Source: Lentisphaeria bacterium (GTDB lineage Bacteria > Verrucomicrobiota > Lentisphaeria > Victivallales > UBA1829). Taken from it: DNA of 51,572 bases. The translations under genes and the position numbers were made by a program. Shown piece after piece: positions 4,797 to 23,767 of this stretch (the stretch's first letter is position 1; the number at the start of each line of letters is the position of its first letter). The stretch lies in the NCBI GenBank assembly GCA_017646015.1, contig JAGCNI010000108.1:1-51572 (forward strand). The letters are read 5' to 3'. The notes beneath the pieces were generated by a model that searched no databases, was not told where the DNA came from, and saw only the letters and a program-made list of their open reading frames with translations.

Positions 4797-5699
4797 ATGT
4801 TTCATAAATCTTTCCGGACCATTGGAGTGATTGCTCCTGCCGGACCTGTTAAAAAAGAGAAAGTAACTGATGCTGTTGCGTTTATGGAATCCTGCGGTGT
4901 TCGCGTCGTTATCGGGGGATCCATTCTGAAAAACGATGATGCACCTTATCTTTCTGCTTCCGCGGAGGCTCGACTTCAGGATTTGAACGGGATGATCCGG
5001 AATCCGGAAGTCGATTTGATTTGTTGTCTGCGCGGCGGATACGGTTCTGTTCATCTGTTGGATCAGGTCGATTGGGAAACCTTTCGGAAACGTAATCTTC
5101 CTTTGATCGGATACAGCGATATCACAGCATTGCATCTGGCGATGATCCGTCAGAAAGCGGGGATCCCGATTGCCGCCCACATGGCGTTGACTTTTCGTAA
5201 AGAGTTTGAGAATAAACAGTTCTGTCATTCTTTCCGTCGTGCATGTGCTCTTGCCGCAGGGGAACGTGGAACGTTTCGCAAATGTGGGCGTCTTATTTCC
5301 TGCGGGGTAGAAAGTCCGGATGTAAGCGGGCGTCTTCATTGTGCGAATCTGACCGTGATGACTTCGTTGTGCGGAACGGCTCACCTGCCATCTATGCGCG
5401 GGAGGATCCTTGTGCTTGAAGATATTGGTGAACCTGTCCGTAAACTGGATCGGAATCTGATGCAGTTGAAACAGAATGGGATTTTCGATGAATGTGCGGC
5501 AGTTGTATTCGGCAGTTATAAGAATTGCGGGAGTGTTGCAGATCGCAGTTATCTGTTTGAGAATTTTGCGAAATCAATTCCTGTTCCCTGTTTTTCCGGT
5601 TTACGATTCGGACATTGTGCCAATTCGCTTTCTTTTATCTGTGGAGAGGAAGCGGAGATTTCAGCGGGGATCCTGAAAGTGTGTACTCCGGAGTTGTGA
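4797..5699 (+). CDS. LD-carboxypeptidase family protein (peptidase S66)
   Basis: A 300-residue serine peptidase of the LdcA/MccF family. LdcA removes the terminal D-Ala from murein tetrapeptides during cell-wall recycling, while MccF-type members cleave peptide-nucleotide antibiotics. The predicted catalytic triad is visible: Ser107 in GYSDIT, Glu208 in LVLEDIGE and His273 in FGHCANSL, with the family's APAGP start and RGGYG motif. I chose the ATG at 4797 because GGAG lies six bases upstream and because the upstream in-frame ATG (4728) sits in a terminator hairpin. There is no signal peptide, which fits a cytoplasmic recycling enzyme. Confidence 0.9.
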   Translation: MFHKSFRTIGVIAPAGPVKKEKVTDAVAFMESCGVRVVIGGSILKNDDAPYLSASAEARLQDLNGMIRNPEVDLICCLRGGYGSVHLLDQVDWETFRKRNLPLIGYSDITALHLAMIRQKAGIPIAAHMALTFRKEFENKQFCHSFRRACALAAGERGTFRKCGRLISCGVESPDVSGRLHCANLTVMTSLCGTAHLPSMRGRILVLEDIGEPVRKLDRNLMQLKQNGIFDECAAVVFGSYKNCGSVADRSYLFENFAKSIPVPCFSGLRFGHCANSLSFICGEEAEISAGILKVCTPEL

Positions 5700-5701
5700 G
5701 T

Positions 5702-6643
5702 TTACCAGAGAAAGATTTTGAATGGTTTTTCCCGGAGCAGACTGCAGAAAAAGTCCGAAAAAGCTTTGATCCTGCGTTCCGGAATAACGGCTTCATCTTC
5801 ATGATAAGAGAGCCATTTCCGTGCAAAATCTTTGAATCCTCTGAATGTGAGGATCAGCGGGAATTCGGCGAATTCCGGATCGTTCCGCAGTCTTGCACAT
5901 TCCCAATCCAGTTTTTCAACAACAGGAAAGAAAAGTCCTGTCATGGAAAGTTCTGTCAATGGCGGTGTCAGAGTGCAGTTTTCAAACAGCAGATTCAAAT
6001 TGATTTCTGCCCGTATCGAAGGGAAGATCGTATCGCTGCAGCGGACAGTGCAAACCGTATTTTTTTCCGGTTGAATTGAAAGATCCGTTTTTTTCTGTGC
6101 GGGATTCATCAGTGAGATCGTTTTTGCAACCGGATTTATTTTCTGTGCGGATGCAGCTGTTTCTCTGAAATGGCGTGCCAGTTCAAGAACCAGTCGCGGA
6201 GAACATTTTTCTGCACCGATTGCAGCCATAGCACAGCGTACCTGTTCCGCCAGAACAGTCACACCCGGTTCAGCCAGTTGCAATTTTGTGATGAGATATT
6301 CTTTGACTGTATCAAGAGTCAGTTTTCCGAAATCGCCGGAATGAGCAGTTGTTTTTCTGAAATGGGTTGAAACGACGGGATATCCGGAATCTTCCAAAAT
6401 GCGGCTGACACAGTCATCGATATCTGCTGCATGGATGAGGAGTCCATTGCCGTCATTATTTCCGGCACGGCATCGGAGAGCGTATTCGACAGCCAGCACG
6501 ATTTCTCCGGCGATCCATGGATCCGGCATACCGACTGCCATGCAGCTTTTTTCCAAACGCTGCCGCAGTTCATCCGGATCAAATGCCGCCGAAGTGCCGT
6601 CGGTATAAAGAATACTGATAATCCCGCTGCTGACTTCTATCAT
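5702..6643 (-). CDS. Hypothetical protein with ATP-cone-like N-terminus
   Basis: A 313-residue soluble protein I do not recognise as a whole. Residues ~8-100 resemble an ATP-cone: ISILYTDGTSAAFDPDEL, then a helical stretch, then ADIDDCVSRILEDSGYPVVSTHFRK. ATP-cones are the allosteric nucleotide-binding modules of NrdR and ribonucleotide reductases. The rest (100-313) is a helical region followed by an unassigned C-terminal part with several Phe/Trp residues, and it shows no reductase motifs. The gene converges on the LD-carboxypeptidase gene with only two bases between stops. It ends in KIFLW. Function unknown. Confidence 0.75.
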   Translation of the reverse strand: MIEVSSGIISILYTDGTSAAFDPDELRQRLEKSCMAVGMPDPWIAGEIVLAVEYALRCRAGNNDGNGLLIHAADIDDCVSRILEDSGYPVVSTHFRKTTAHSGDFGKLTLDTVKEYLITKLQLAEPGVTVLAEQVRCAMAAIGAEKCSPRLVLELARHFRETAASAQKINPVAKTISLMNPAQKKTDLSIQPEKNTVCTVRCSDTIFPSIRAEINLNLLFENCTLTPPLTELSMTGLFFPVVEKLDWECARLRNDPEFAEFPLILTFRGFKDFARKWLSYHEDEAVIPERRIKAFSDFFCSLLREKPFKIFLW

Positions 6644-17471: not shown

Positions 17472-19193
17472 ATGAAAAAAGTAGAACATATAATTTCGGC
17501 ACTATCTTTTCCGCATGTGATTGATGATTTGATTATTCCTTTTCAAATCAGCAACGAAGAGGTCTATCCGGATCGTCTTGCTTTTTTGGTGGATGCGGTC
17601 AAAGGGAAACGTGTTTTGCATTTGGGATGTTGTGACCATATTGATATTATTGAACAGAAGATTGCGAACAATATCTGGTTGCACGGGCTGCTCTGTGATG
17701 CATCTGAATTATGCTATGGCATAGACAATAATCAGGAAGCGGTTGACTTTCTGACCAATAAAGGCTGGAAAAATATTTATTGTGCGGATATCAGCCGGGG
17801 AATACCGGAAGAGGTAAGACAGCAGCATTTTGATGTAATGATTCTCGGGGAGATTCTTGAGCATATCAATGATCCTGCTGCTTTCTTGAAACAGTTACAT
17901 TCATTTTTTGATTATGAATATACTTTGATCATTACAGTTCCCAATGCGTTTACTTTGGATAACTGGAAGAATGTAATGAATAATTTTGAACGGATCAATT
18001 CTGATCACCGTTATTGGTTTACGCCCTATACGATTTCAAAAATCTGCTATGAAGGCGGTTATAAAACAAAAAATGTCAACTTTGTCTATCGTTCTTCAGA
18101 GACAAAATATGGAATTGGAAGTGATATTGATAAATCGCTCTTCCGCTATTATCCAGGATTCCGTGATGTGCTCGTTGTTGAAGCCTCTTCAACCGGTGAT
18201 GGATTGAAAGATAAAATCAATCCGGAGATTCCAGAGTTGAATAAAGAGGATATTTATTCTTTATTCCGTTGGGATTCTTCTCCGGAATCATGTAAGTTCC
18301 GTTCCTTTGTAAAAAACACCTTGTACAGTTTGGAAAGATCCTGGAATACTTCTGTTTATGACAGAAATTTACAGATGTTTCTTGCAGAACAGGAACGCAT
18401 TGTTGAGGAAAATCAGAAGCTCGGTACGGATTTGCAAACAGTTACAGCACAGAAAAATACGCAGTCAGCACAGTTGACAGATGCACTCCGTGCCAATGAA
18501 AAAATGTCTGTGGAATTGGGGGAAGCTCTCAAGGCAAGAGAAGAACGGAGCCGTTTACAGGCGTCATTGGATGAGGCTGGCAAACGGGAGGCAGAACTTC
18601 GATCCGGAAATGAAATATTGAAAAATACCGTGGCTGAACGTGACCGGACTGTTGTTGCTGTCACCACTGAAAATAATCACTTGAAAAATTCTTTGACGGA
18701 ATATGAAAAGTCGGTTGCCGAAGTTCGATCCGGAAATGAGGAGTTGAAAAAACTCTTGGCAGAACAGGAAAAAATGATTGCTGTTCTTACTTTGGAAAAG
18801 GAACAGCTTTCCAGTCGTCTGGCAGAGACCGGGAAAACTCTCAGTAAGACAGAAGAGGTGTTGTCTAAGAAAAATGATGAGTTGGCAGTTCAGCAGAAAG
18901 CGTTACAGGAAGTGAAGAGTCGTATGGCAAGACAGGATTCTGACATTGCTTCTGCAACACGCGAAAATATTGCTTTGCAAAGTCAGCTCAATTCGTTGAA
19001 ACAGGAAAATTTAAGAGTTTCAGCAGACTTGCTTCACATGACCGGACATTCACAATATCTTTCTGCGGAATTGACTAAAAAAATCGCCGAAGCAGAGGAG
19101 TATTTTGCGGAAGCTCAGCAGTATCAGACACGATATTTCCGGCTCTGTGCAAAAATTCGGAAAATATTGAAAAAGATTTTATTCCTCAAATAA
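17472..19193 (+). CDS. SAM-dependent methyltransferase fused to a long coiled coil (WbdD-like capping enzyme and ruler, predicted)
   Basis: A 573-residue protein. Residues ~35-240 form a class I methyltransferase: motif I VLHLGCCD (48-55), acidic GIDNN (83-87), and DVMILGEILEHI (121-132). Residues ~310-520 are heptad-rich coiled coil, including an internal 42-residue repeat (374-415 and 416-457). At 525-536 is GHSQYLSAELTK, the same module that repeats in the next gene product. The last ~30 residues are basic and amphipathic (IRKILKKILFLK), suited to membrane contact. No kinase domain is seen between methyltransferase and coil, so it resembles the O8 (methyl only) rather than O9a (methyl-phosphate) WbdD plan. 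The chain-capping role is inferred from order and architecture. Confidence 0.85.
   Translation: MKKVEHIISALSFPHVIDDLIIPFQISNEEVYPDRLAFLVDAVKGKRVLHLGCCDHIDIIEQKIANNIWLHGLLCDASELCYGIDNNQEAVDFLTNKGWKNIYCADISRGIPEEVRQQHFDVMILGEILEHINDPAAFLKQLHSFFDYEYTLIITVPNAFTLDNWKNVMNNFERINSDHRYWFTPYTISKICYEGGYKTKNVNFVYRSSETKYGIGSDIDKSLFRYYPGFRDVLVVEASSTGDGLKDKINPEIPELNKEDIYSLFRWDSSPESCKFRSFVKNTLYSLERSWNTSVYDRNLQMFLAEQERIVEENQKLGTDLQTVTAQKNTQSAQLTDALRANEKMSVELGEALKAREERSRLQASLDEAGKREAELRSGNEILKNTVAERDRTVVAVTTENNHLKNSLTEYEKSVAEVRSGNEELKKLLAEQEKMIAVLTLEKEQLSSRLAETGKTLSKTEEVLSKKNDELAVQQKALQEVKSRMARQDSDIASATRENIALQSQLNSLKQENLRVSADLLHMTGHSQYLSAELTKKIAEAEEYFAEAQQYQTRYFRLCAKIRKILKKILFLK
18591..18842 (+). repeat. 126-bp tandem duplication inside the coiled-coil coding region
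   Basis: Two successive 126-bp units (42 codons, six heptads) begin with A-E-L/V-R-S-G-N-E. The DNA TTCGATCCGGAAATGA occurs at 18598 and again exactly 126 bases on, at 18724. The protein repeat is clear for about 25 residues per unit and decays afterwards. Confidence 0.75.
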
Positions 19194-19237
19194 GGTGTTG
19201 GGGCGAGAATAGAAATTACAGAAAAGAGGATAATATC

Positions 19238-22200
19238 ATGAAAAGTAATAGTACAGTATCTGTTATTGTTCCGGTATTCAATACGGAAAAATATTTGCAG
19301 GCTGCATTGGATTCTCTGTTCAAACAGACTCTGAAAGATATTGAGATCATCTGTGTGAATGATGGTTCAACCGATTCATCCCGCCAGATCCTGGAAGAGA
19401 ACAAAGATCGGATCCAGATCGTAGATAAAGAAAATGGCGGTCTTTCTTCTGCCCGGAATGCAGGTCTGCTCCGTGCTCAGGGAAAATATGTATATTTCTT
19501 TGACAGTGATGATCTTCTGATGCCGGATGCCTTGGAAACACTGTATTTGCAGTCCGAAAAAAATGAGTTGGATATTCTTCATTTTGAGTGGGTCCGGTTC
19601 TTTGATGATGAGGATGCCAAACAACATTTCAATGGCAATACGCAGGATTCGCTGAACGGGATTTATAATCAGGTTTATGAGAATGGCGAATTATTTGCAC
19701 AGAAAGTGGGAAATGATGATTTCCGTTCCAGTGCCTGTCTGCGTTTTTTCCGGAAAGAATTTCTGGATCGTGAATCTCTGACTTTTCTGGAGGGGATCGT
19801 TCACGAAGATGAACTTTTTGCAGTTCTGTGTGATGTCCATGCCAAACGGGTGATGCATTGTCCGCATAAATTTTTCCACCGTCGTGTCCGCAGCAATTCG
19901 ATCATGACAGCGAAGAATACCAATCATCTTCATGCTGCCTGCCGTTTTATTGTGGCTGCGACTTTGTTGGAACATTTTGAAAAACAGCAGAATATTGCAG
20001 ACGCAGTGTTGGAAAAGGTCCGGAAACGGATCGAAATCGTTTTGAATGCGGCACTGTGGGATTATATTCATCTGGAAGATAATCAGAAAATATTGGTGCG
20101 TGAGGAGTTCCAGAAAAAGACCGGACTTGCCTGTGAAGTATTTCTGCATATTTGTGAATATGCGTTTCAGCGCGGCTGCATTCAGAAAAATAAATTGGAA
20201 TCCCAACTCAATGAGTATCAGGAAAAACTCTCTTCCATTGAGAATAAATTGGCTTATGAATCCAAAATTCTTTCTGATCCGGAAAAGAAACTCGGCGATG
20301 GATGTGTTGCTGTCGGCAAAATGGAAGAGAATGACACTGCCCCTCTGATTTCTGTGATTATTCCTGTTTTCAATATGGAAAAATATCTGGGTGAAAGTTT
20401 GCGTTCTGTGATATCCCAGACTCTTCAGAATATTGAGATCATCTGTGTTGATGACGGATCCAAAGATGCGTCTGTGAGTGTGCTGAAAGGTTTTGCTGCG
20501 AATGATTCCCGGATCCGTATTTTCCAACAGCCGAACTCCGGAGTGGCAGCCGCCCGTAATCTCGGGATGCTCCATGCCAAAGGGAAATTTCTGGCATTTC
20601 TGGATCCGGATGATATGTATCCGGAGGAAAAGACACTGGAAAAATTGTATCATGCAGCCGTTGACAATGATGTGTTGATTGCCGGGGGAAGTGTCTGCTG
20701 GCTGGAAAACGGGGTGATTCAGGAACATCCGGAACGCGGATTCGGCGAGATGGTTTTTGAAACCAGCGGGAAACGATCCTATGCGGATTATCAATATGAT
20801 TATGGATTCTGGCGATTCATTTACAATCGTGAACTGGTTCAGAAAAACAACATCGTATTTCCGCCATACCGTCGTTTCCAGGATCCGCCTTTCATGGTGG
20901 CGACCTTTGCGGCTGCCGGAGATTTTTATGTATTGAAAGAACCTGTGTATGTGTATCGTGCAAACTACCGGAAACAGGATGTTTCTGCCATGCCGATCGA
21001 TAAGGTGTTGGATATTTATTCCGGTAATCTGGATGTGATCCGTATTGCAAAAGCTTATTCTCTGAATCGTTTTCATCAGCGTGTATTTAAGAGAATCAAC
21101 TGTGAATTGCATGAAATTTCCTATTCCGCTGTATATAACGGAAATCGTGCAGTGTTCGATAAATTGATGGCGATTCAGAAAGAATTAGATCCGCAATTTT
21201 TGGAAGAGGAGGATTCATTGCTGATTCCTTTGAAGAGAATTTTTGAATCCTGCACGAATAATAACCGTTTGATTTTTTCAATTATTATTCCTGTTTATAA
21301 GACAGAACAATATCTGGAACAATGTATCAATGCCCTTCGCAGACAGACTGTTCGGAAATTTGAGGTGATTTTTGTTGATGATGGCAGCAATGGAAATTGC
21401 GAGCAGATTGTGGCAGACAGTTATGATTCCCGATTCCGTTATATCCGTCATGAAGAGAATAGAGGTTTGTTGGCTGCCAGAATTACCGGAGCCCGGCATG
21501 CTCAAGGAGAATTTTTGGTTCATTTGGATCCTGATGATACCTATGAACCGCATTTGCTGCAAAATCTTTTGAATGTGATCAATGCTTGTTCTGATGTGGA
21601 CATCATCACCTACTGGGCGAATATTATTGAGGGAGATAAAAAATCCGCATTCTGGGCAAATAATCCGACGGAAACAGTGGTTGGCAAAGAGATTTTCTCC
21701 CGGCTCATCAATGGAAAACAGTATTGGACAATCTGGGGAAAATGTATTCGCAGATCACTTTATATCAAGGCGGTTGATGCGTTGGATCTCCCGCAAGATT
21801 TGAATTTGACGAATACGGAAGATTTGTTGCAATTTCTGCCGATCGCATATTTCGCCAGGAAAATGGTTTCTATTGAATATCCCGGATATAATTATTTCAA
21901 AAATCCGCAGTCTGTGACAATGAATGTCACGCAGATGGATAAGTGGACAAGATGCTTTACCAATGTTTACAACTCCTGGAAATATCTCTGCCGTTTTGCC
22001 GAAGCACAGCATGTGACAGAAGAAGAACTCTGTCGGATCCGGAATTTGCAGAAAGGTGTGATTGAATGGGGCTTGAAGCTGATCGATCCAATGCCTGCCA
22101 AAGATTGGAATGAACATTTTACAGTGCTGCATGATTGCTGTTATCAGAGTTATCTTTATAATATTATTTGCAGTAAATATATGTCTCATTTTTACGACTT

Positions 22201-23767
22201 GGATCTTTCCCCGGTAAAACTGCCGACTGTTCCTGATCGGAAAATTCAGACTGTCGCTGTGCTCAGTGATACTATGGCCGGTGGGGGTGCTGAACGGGCT
22301 ACGGCTGTGTTGATCCGGAATTTTGTGGAAAATGGTTACCGGGTCGTTCTTTTCAATGGTTATGAGCCAAAATCCAATGAATATGATTTTCCGAGCGTGC
22401 CTCGTTATATCCTGCCGGAAAGTTACAGCGTAGAACGTTGGGATATGCTGCAAAAAAAATGTCAGGAACATCAGGTCGATTGTGCCATTCTTATCGGTCA
22501 TCTGCACTTGCGGGCTTATATTGATTTGATTTGTCTTAAAATGACAGGATGCAGAATTGTCATGCAGGAACATTCTGCCTATCTTTATCCCTTGATCGAT
22601 TCTGCGTATTATACCAACTTCTTCTATCGCAAGCCATTCTACAAAATTGCAGATGTTTTGACTTGTCTTTCTGATTACAATGTAAAGTGGTGGCAGACTG
22701 CTGGCGTTTCTCAAACTGTTTATATGCCGAATTTCCTTACTTTCAAATGTGATGAAAATGTTGCTCAATCCTCATTGAGCAGCAGTGATTTACTGTTTGT
22801 CGGACGTATTTCAAGATTGAAAGGTGCATTCAAAGCTGTTGATATGATGAAATTCCTGATTACAAAACAGCCTGAGGCAAAACTTTATATGTTGGGACGT
22901 TTCGTGACAGAGAAAGAGGAAAAAGAATTCAGAGATCATGTAGCAGCCCGGGGCGTTGAAAATAATGTAGAAATCGTTGGTTCTGTCACTGATGTGGCTG
23001 CTTATTTCAAAAAGGCTGCCGCTCTGGTGATGTGTTCCCGTGTGGAAGGGGCTCCGATGGTTCTCTTTGAAGCAAAAGCCTATGGCGTGCCGACTGTTTT
23101 GTTTGATCTGCCGTATGTGGACAGTACCACTCCGGAAGAGGGGGTTGTTTCGGTTCCGCAGGATGATGTCAAAGCGATGGCGGATCGTCTGGCTGAACTG
23201 CTTGGAGAGGATAGAACTGAATTGCAGAAACTGGGAGCTCTTGCCAAGAAGAGTCTGACGCGTTTTACGGATGCTGTGATCATGGAACAGTGGAAAGCTC
23301 TGTTTGCAAAATTGGAATCCGGTATTCCTCTTGAAGCCGCTCCTGTTGATCCGCTTTTGAAAGTGACCATGAACGAATTTGAAATGACGATCCGTGGAAT
23401 GTCCGCACGAATAGAGGAAGGCTTGGGGAAAATCGGTCATAACCAGTGGCTTACCTCCGAGCTTACCAAGGCAAAAGGACATGGAGATTATCTTTCTGCA
23501 GAGTTGACTCATATGACTGGACATGCTCAGTATCTTTCTGCTGAATTGACAAAGGCACAGGGGCATGGGCAGTATCTTTCTGCAGAATTGCTGAAAGCTC
23601 AGGGGAATGAGCAGTATCTTTCTGCTGAATTGACAAAGGCACAGGCATATTATGAATCTCTTGAAGCAGAGTTGGCAGTATATAAAAGGTATTTCCTGGT
23701 TCGGCTGGTGAAGAAATTCTGCCGGATCCCTGCAAAATTGAAATCCATATTCATGCGGGGAAGATGA
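19238..23767 (+). CDS. Giant multidomain glycosyltransferase: GT2-GT2-GT2-GT4 plus C-terminal repeat module
   Basis: A 1509-residue cytosolic or membrane-associated glycan polymerase candidate. GT2 domain 1 (~1-240: SVIVPVFNTEKYL, NDGSTDSS, FDSDD), GT2 domain 2 (~370-620: SVIIPVFNMEKYL, DDGSKDAS, LDPDD), GT2 domain 3 (~680-900: SIIIPVYKTEQYL, DDGSNGN, LDPDD) and a GT4 domain (~1004-1370: AGGGAERAT, FVGRISRLKGA, VEGAPMVLFEAKAYG). All three GT2 domains keep the aspartates for nucleotide-sugar and metal binding. Residues 1400-1483 hold six 14-residue repeats (GHxxYLSAELTKAQ), then a basic amphipathic tail. It resembles multi-active-site O-antigen polymerases such as WbdA, but the sugars are unknown. 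It lies 44 bases after the methyltransferase gene. Confidence 0.9.
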   Translation: MKSNSTVSVIVPVFNTEKYLQAALDSLFKQTLKDIEIICVNDGSTDSSRQILEENKDRIQIVDKENGGLSSARNAGLLRAQGKYVYFFDSDDLLMPDALETLYLQSEKNELDILHFEWVRFFDDEDAKQHFNGNTQDSLNGIYNQVYENGELFAQKVGNDDFRSSACLRFFRKEFLDRESLTFLEGIVHEDELFAVLCDVHAKRVMHCPHKFFHRRVRSNSIMTAKNTNHLHAACRFIVAATLLEHFEKQQNIADAVLEKVRKRIEIVLNAALWDYIHLEDNQKILVREEFQKKTGLACEVFLHICEYAFQRGCIQKNKLESQLNEYQEKLSSIENKLAYESKILSDPEKKLGDGCVAVGKMEENDTAPLISVIIPVFNMEKYLGESLRSVISQTLQNIEIICVDDGSKDASVSVLKGFAANDSRIRIFQQPNSGVAAARNLGMLHAKGKFLAFLDPDDMYPEEKTLEKLYHAAVDNDVLIAGGSVCWLENGVIQEHPERGFGEMVFETSGKRSYADYQYDYGFWRFIYNRELVQKNNIVFPPYRRFQDPPFMVATFAAAGDFYVLKEPVYVYRANYRKQDVSAMPIDKVLDIYSGNLDVIRIAKAYSLNRFHQRVFKRINCELHEISYSAVYNGNRAVFDKLMAIQKELDPQFLEEEDSLLIPLKRIFESCTNNNRLIFSIIIPVYKTEQYLEQCINALRRQTVRKFEVIFVDDGSNGNCEQIVADSYDSRFRYIRHEENRGLLAARITGARHAQGEFLVHLDPDDTYEPHLLQNLLNVINACSDVDIITYWANIIEGDKKSAFWANNPTETVVGKEIFSRLINGKQYWTIWGKCIRRSLYIKAVDALDLPQDLNLTNTEDLLQFLPIAYFARKMVSIEYPGYNYFKNPQSVTMNVTQMDKWTRCFTNVYNSWKYLCRFAEAQHVTEEELCRIRNLQKGVIEWGLKLIDPMPAKDWNEHFTVLHDCCYQSYLYNIICSKYMSHFYDLDLSPVKLPTVPDRKIQTVAVLSDTMAGGGAERATAVLIRNFVENGYRVVLFNGYEPKSNEYDFPSVPRYILPESYSVERWDMLQKKCQEHQVDCAILIGHLHLRAYIDLICLKMTGCRIVMQEHSAYLYPLIDSAYYTNFFYRKPFYKIADVLTCLSDYNVKWWQTAGVSQTVYMPNFLTFKCDENVAQSSLSSSDLLFVGRISRLKGAFKAVDMMKFLITKQPEAKLYMLGRFVTEKEEKEFRDHVAARGVENNVEIVGSVTDVAAYFKKAAALVMCSRVEGAPMVLFEAKAYGVPTVLFDLPYVDSTTPEEGVVSVPQDDVKAMADRLAELLGEDRTELQKLGALAKKSLTRFTDAVIMEQWKALFAKLESGIPLEAAPVDPLLKVTMNEFEMTIRGMSARIEEGLGKIGHNQWLTSELTKAKGHGDYLSAELTHMTGHAQYLSAELTKAQGHGQYLSAELLKAQGNEQYLSAELTKAQAYYESLEAELAVYKRYFLVRLVKKFCRIPAKLKSIFMRGR
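23435..23644 (+). repeat. 42-bp tandem repeats encoding the GHxxYLSAELTKAQ module
   Basis: Five in-frame 42-bp units, with a sixth degenerate unit after them, encode residues 1400-1469 (+1470-1483). The core CAGTATCTTTCTGC recurs almost unchanged. The third unit is preceded by CATATGACTGGACATG, which closely matches the single copy in the methyltransferase gene at about 19035-19080. Confidence 0.85.

Follow-up and report, generated by a model that had tools for sequence, protein, structure and literature searches.

A 14-residue tail module common to a predicted chain-terminating methyltransferase and the adjacent multimodule glycosyltransferase of a Lentisphaeria glycan operon

The described systems closest to the locus analysed here are the WbdD/WbdA pairs of E. 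coli O8/O9/O9a and K. pneumoniae O3/O5. According to the accounts cited, the C-terminus of WbdD recruits the polymerase WbdA (PMC3482155, PMC11231755), while its coiled coil serves as a ruler whose length sets the chain length, the capped chains being recognised by Wzt (PMC3482155, PMC5082667, PMC11231755). WbdD itself has been described as a homotrimer (PMC3482155). A fused design is reported for K. pneumoniae O12 WbbB and O7 ORF6, where the termination module, the coil and the glycosyltransferase modules lie in one protein and Wzm/Wzt are encoded in the operon (PMC11231755). Control of glycan length depends centrally on where the polymerase sits with respect to the ruler.

An operon of the terminator and polymerase type

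The window, that is the whole stretch of 51,572 nucleotides that was analysed, includes genes for a Wzm-like permease, a Wzt-like ATPase with a Wzt_C domain, a methyltransferase (MT) and a giant glycosyltransferase (GT). They are read in the same direction with short intergenic gaps, and the GT gene adjoins that of MT directly downstream (Table 1). Since Wzm and Wzt, the latter with its Wzt_C domain, precede MT and GT, this is an ABC-transporter-dependent glycan operon, and it is of the 'terminator with coiled-coil ruler plus polymerase' type, of which WbdD/WbdA is the prototype. The permease and the ATPase with a carbohydrate-binding C-terminal domain are present (PF01061, PF00005, PF14524), as are a predicted chain terminator that carries a long coiled coil (Methyltransf_23 at residues 30-198, coil at 296-558) and a predicted multimodule polymerase in the same operon (GT2 x3 + GT4). 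MT probably caps, and GT probably builds, a surface sugar chain.

As far as the cited descriptions go, the likeness to WbdD/WbdA covers Wzm/Wzt with Wzt_C, the N-terminal methyltransferase, the long coil and a multimodule glycosyltransferase in the cluster, and the C-terminal region of MT could be the membrane or recruitment region (PMC3482155, PMC5082667, PMC11231755). MT has a basic amphipathic stretch there, a mere candidate for the membrane helix and polymerase recruitment site that WbdD-type terminators have at their C-terminus. Unlike O9a WbdD, in which a kinase domain lies between methyltransferase and coil, and as described for O8 WbdD, MT has no kinase family among its Pfam or NCBIfam matches. 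The PDB sequence search gave no match to WbdD, and the GT2 x3 + GT4 composition of GT also departs from WbdD/WbdA.

Like O12 WbbB and O7 ORF6 as described (PMC11231755), and like the loci L101 and L102 of the same order, the operon combines a termination module, a coil and GT modules with Wzm/Wzt. In all four these parts form one polypeptide, whereas here they belong to two proteins, joined, if at all, by their common tail. The fused MT-coil-GT2-GT4 proteins of L101 (3479-7312) and L102 (3477-7607) follow ABC transporter genes, so that coupling of MT and GT through a coil does occur in this order. Another locus of the order, L083, has the same gene order and domain plan (Wzm, Wzt, Methyltransf_24-coil, separate GT2/GT4). 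It differs in its methyltransferase family, in a GT that ends without a coil and in having no detectable tail common to MT and GT; the module is therefore not generally required. Other architectures are seen in the phylum. L109 (5232-10073) and L172 (4239-9446), both Wzt_C loci, encode single proteins with a sulfotransferase-like N-terminus, a long coil and GT modules, which are possible sulfate-capping terminators. In L099 (3459-6656), a protein with a GT99-type N-terminus, a GT4 domain and a C-terminal coil with a basic end is encoded after ABC transporter genes.

The general scheme, in which a coiled-coil terminator recruits the polymerase, was already known from E. coli O9a. The initial annotation of the window knew of no described equivalent, which is not so for the principle (WbdD/WbdA; PMC3482155, PMC11231755). 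What does stand is that a module common to both enzymes was not found elsewhere in the genomes and loci searched. Its presence on terminator and polymerase alike seems to be a novelty; the cited descriptions of WbdD/WbdA, on which this comparison is based, do not report one.

Table 1. Coordinates of the operon genes and tail features in the window
Feature	Positions	Strand	Support
Wzm-like ABC-2 permease, 314 aa	15054..15998	+	Pfam PF01061 E 6e-20; NCBIfam galactan_ABC_perm Wzm/RfbD E 1e-15, under model cut-off
Wzt-like ATPase with C-terminal carbohydrate-binding domain, 491 aa	15982..17457	+	PF00005 E 2.4e-22; PF14524 Wzt_C E 1.8e-16
MT with long coiled coil, 573 aa, proposed chain terminator	17472..19193	+	PF13489 at 30-198, E 5.5e-10; coil heuristic 296-558
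MT coiled coil, residues 296-558, proposed ruler	18357..19145	+	263-residue run (coil heuristic); heptad phase constant ~340 to 528
Weaker MT unit m2, residues 511-524, QENLRVSADLLHMT	19002..19043	+	6/14 to GT U2; pre-unit alignment p 0.0002 (plain shuffle)
Clear MT unit m3, residues 525-538, GHSQYLSAELTKKI	19044..19085	+	11/14 identical to GT U3
Basic amphipathic MT C-terminus, residues 553-573, possible membrane helix	19128..19190	+	Hydrophobic moment up to 0.62; net charge up to +7 in 18 residues
GT, 1509 aa, GT2 x3 + GT4 x1, proposed polymerase	19238..23767	+	PF00535 three stretches E 1.7e-105; PF00534 1184-1333 E 7.3e-23
Continuous predicted helix, GT residues 1372-1495	23351..23722	+	AlphaFold2 single sequence; mean pLDDT at least 90 for 1423-1482, lower elsewhere
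GT units U1-U6, residues 1400-1483; U1-U5 clear, U6 degenerate	23435..23686	+	Direct reading
Basic amphipathic GT C-terminus, residues 1484-1509	23687..23764	+	Hydrophobic moment up to 0.65; net charge +6 to +7 in 18 residues

Units of the tail module and their relationship

A 14-residue unit, GHxxYLSAELTKxx, had been annotated once in MT and six times in tandem at the end of GT. Its coordinates were correct and the array of six units stands. The count needs some qualification: only five of the GT copies are clear, the sixth, U6 (AYYESLEAELAVYK), being degenerate (4/14 against the other units), and a weaker unit precedes the one clear copy of MT. The strict GHxxYLSAELTK occurs a single time per protein, in m3 and in U3; U1, U2, U4 and U5 differ from this motif by one to three changes. 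Residues 511-538 of MT match U2-U3, down to the HMT that GT contains at the U2/U3 junction alone. In the DNA of the array, Tandem Repeats Finder detects a period of 42 at 23528-23645. Two-heptad tandem repeats of unrelated sequence are also present in L083 and L173, the latter in the coiled tail of a GT2 protein (5190-6629; SSVTSNDALITELR). Repeats of 14 residues are thus not unusual, and the distinctive point is that the module is common to both enzymes.

Because coiled coils resemble one another anyway, the tail alignment was compared with shuffles in which the MT coil was permuted within heptad positions, the composition of each position being kept. None of 2,000 such shuffles reached the observed score (107, against a shuffle maximum of 79), and blastp of MT against GT gave E 8e-8. 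Judged from these comparisons, the tail modules are homologous, with a similarity beyond coiled-coil bias, which upholds the annotated sharing. Once the clear MT unit is masked, the residual similarity is weak (49/2,000 shuffles reach it); the common element is therefore one strong unit with its upstream neighbour, not the entire tail. Homology of the whole C-termini was considered and dropped, the tails after the module (RYF... basic ends) being not significantly alike (p 0.2).

The likeness of the DNA had been read as proof that the module was copied between the two genes. Over 48 bases around the unit, MT and GT are identical at 38, against an expectation of 34.9 (SD 2.2, p = 0.12) when both peptides are drawn with local codon usage. 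As this level is predicted by the common amino acids and codon usage, the argument for a recent transfer fails, and the DNA identity is no independent evidence of recent copying between MT and GT. At the protein level, 14/16 residues are the same, over codons diverged to the level that codon usage predicts. This residue identity implies that the modules descend from one source, and the fact that it has outlasted the divergence of the codons suggests selection at the level of the protein. Such selection argues against an explanation that we consider very improbable, in which the module is functionless and arose as neighbouring coil genes prone to repeats duplicated or converted one another. In its favour, the GT array does duplicate (U3 and U5 are identical at 38/42 bases, which fits a recent duplication inside the array) and coils of this pathway gain internal repeats, with a lag of 42 residues in MT and of 56 in L083.

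Distribution of the module

The searches support, within everything covered, confinement of the module to this one MT/GT pair of a glycan operon. In its own genome (78.8% complete) it occurs in MT and GT and in no other frame; a further match (C78, E 0.235) proved to be an unrelated 765-aa ORF without repeat. It was not found in 35 other genomes of the family (36 including its own), nor by a profile search of 387 other genomes of the phylum (388 including its own). A DNA pattern of two YLSAEL-like cores 14 residues apart was also run on ~85,000 species, a set that may omit this genome and very close ones, so that closely related strains with the module may have gone undetected. The 23 stretches matched lie mostly in short or simple-repeat frames, and none encodes GHxxYLSAELTK units in the matching frame. 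The same pattern revealed no module in viral contigs, and plasmid and phage matches were weak (E 2e-3 to 3e-2).

Among 100 Wzt_C loci surveyed in the phylum, 27 have a coil of at least 80 residues by a home-made heuristic with at least one omission, the coil of L083, a locus also without a tail match. No other coil protein in the 100 loci has a tail common to a neighbour. Candidate matches in L073, L086, L093, L106 and L110 were rejected as ordinary domain homology or unrelated repeats, and those in L144, L145, L160, L169 and L172 involve no coil protein. Matches to the catalytic part of MT elsewhere in the phylum lie in open frames of 216-263 aa only, too short for the coil. The alignments of GT4 relatives stop before the GT tail, and their C-termini are without units. 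As the nearest catalytic relatives of both enzymes are without the module, the two tails look like add-ons.

This distribution bears on the main rival to a packing of one tail against the other, namely that each tail self-associates as a homo-oligomeric coiled coil while the basic helix anchors each enzyme at the membrane, the module stemming from common descent of a convenient tail. Coil tails with basic ends are indeed carried by lone GTs and MTs in the Wzt_C loci L099, L161 and L173, with no partner tail, and WbdD is itself homotrimeric (PMC3482155). However, the module was found in no frame of the genome but those of the very two proteins that would be expected to work together, and independent anchors would not need an identical sequence. 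We hold self-association to be somewhat unlikely; a functionless by-product, or a third partner as discussed below, is less likely than this.

Coiled-coil register and possible docking of the two tails

Fourteen residues amount to two heptads, as the initial annotation remarked, and the a/d (hydrophobic core) positions, at unit residues 3, 6, 10 and 13, are in phase with the MT coil heptads from ~340 to 528. The MT unit is therefore inside the coil, not just after it as had been annotated; the GT tail is predicted to be helical.

The explanation that we favour, at about even odds, is that MT and GT form a split terminator/polymerase pair whose coiled-coil tails, packed in register, keep the two enzymes together close to the membrane. 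MT would cap the non-reducing end of the chain, its long coil holding it away from the membrane and acting as a length ruler, and GT would polymerise the glycan. Each would end in a helical stalk that contains the two-heptad module and leads into a basic amphipathic stretch. At the membrane, the stalks would come together as an in-register coiled coil, which would recruit GT to the foot of the MT ruler. The basis of this reading is the gene order, the domains, the homology of the tail modules, the GT helix prediction, the common heptad phase and the rarity of the module, from which we infer the catalytic roles, contact with the membrane and, most of all, binding between the tails. It is supported by the fusion of MT, coil and GT in L101 and L102 and by the WbdD/WbdA precedent, as described. 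Several observations count against it: MT has one clear unit against five in GT; unit residue 3, an a position, is occupied by small or polar residues (N, G, A, G, E in the GT units and S in that of MT); taken by itself, the GT array has only a weak 3.5-residue periodicity (p 0.13); the AlphaFold model of MT, tail included, has low confidence (mean pLDDT 48) and gives a hint at most; and L083 is without such a tail.

Gly-His and Tyr, located at exposed heptad positions, are conserved across U2-U4 and m3. This conservation, like the presence of an identical short module on two proteins, would also be expected for a common docking site, both tails binding one third partner (e.g. Wzt, Wzm or a scaffold) and gathering at the exporter without mutual contact. 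No candidate receptor was identified, and recruitment in the known case, as described, runs between terminator and polymerase (PMC3482155); a third partner looks quite improbable.

At ~1.49 Å per helical residue, the MT coil would extend over ~390 Å and the GT helix over ~185 Å; if U3 is assumed to pair with m3, simple arithmetic leaves ~170 residues, or ~260 Å, of MT coil projecting past the point where the GT helix begins. The matching module might even act as a sequence-specific zipper, the number of GT units setting the docking point along the ruler (~21 Å per unit), which we regard as rather unlikely. If so, the number of units in the GT tail would give glycan length a second control, itself open to evolution. 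If the module is a dock, it would be a small, portable and testable coupling element, and homologous tails on neighbours with no other relationship could aid the prediction of enzyme partners in further clusters.

The coils themselves also contain longer repeats. Inside the MT coil, residues 355-389 and 397-431 (18534-18764 of the window) form an internal duplication with a lag of 42 residues, or six heptads, and are identical at 17/35 positions, against a maximum of 13 in 300 shuffles; a past lengthening of the ruler is possible. The MT coil of L083 (14699-16519, - strand), encoded directly after Wzm/Wzt, is made of 56-residue tandem repeats, identical at 40/40 positions at best, and the length of this ruler could change by whole repeats.
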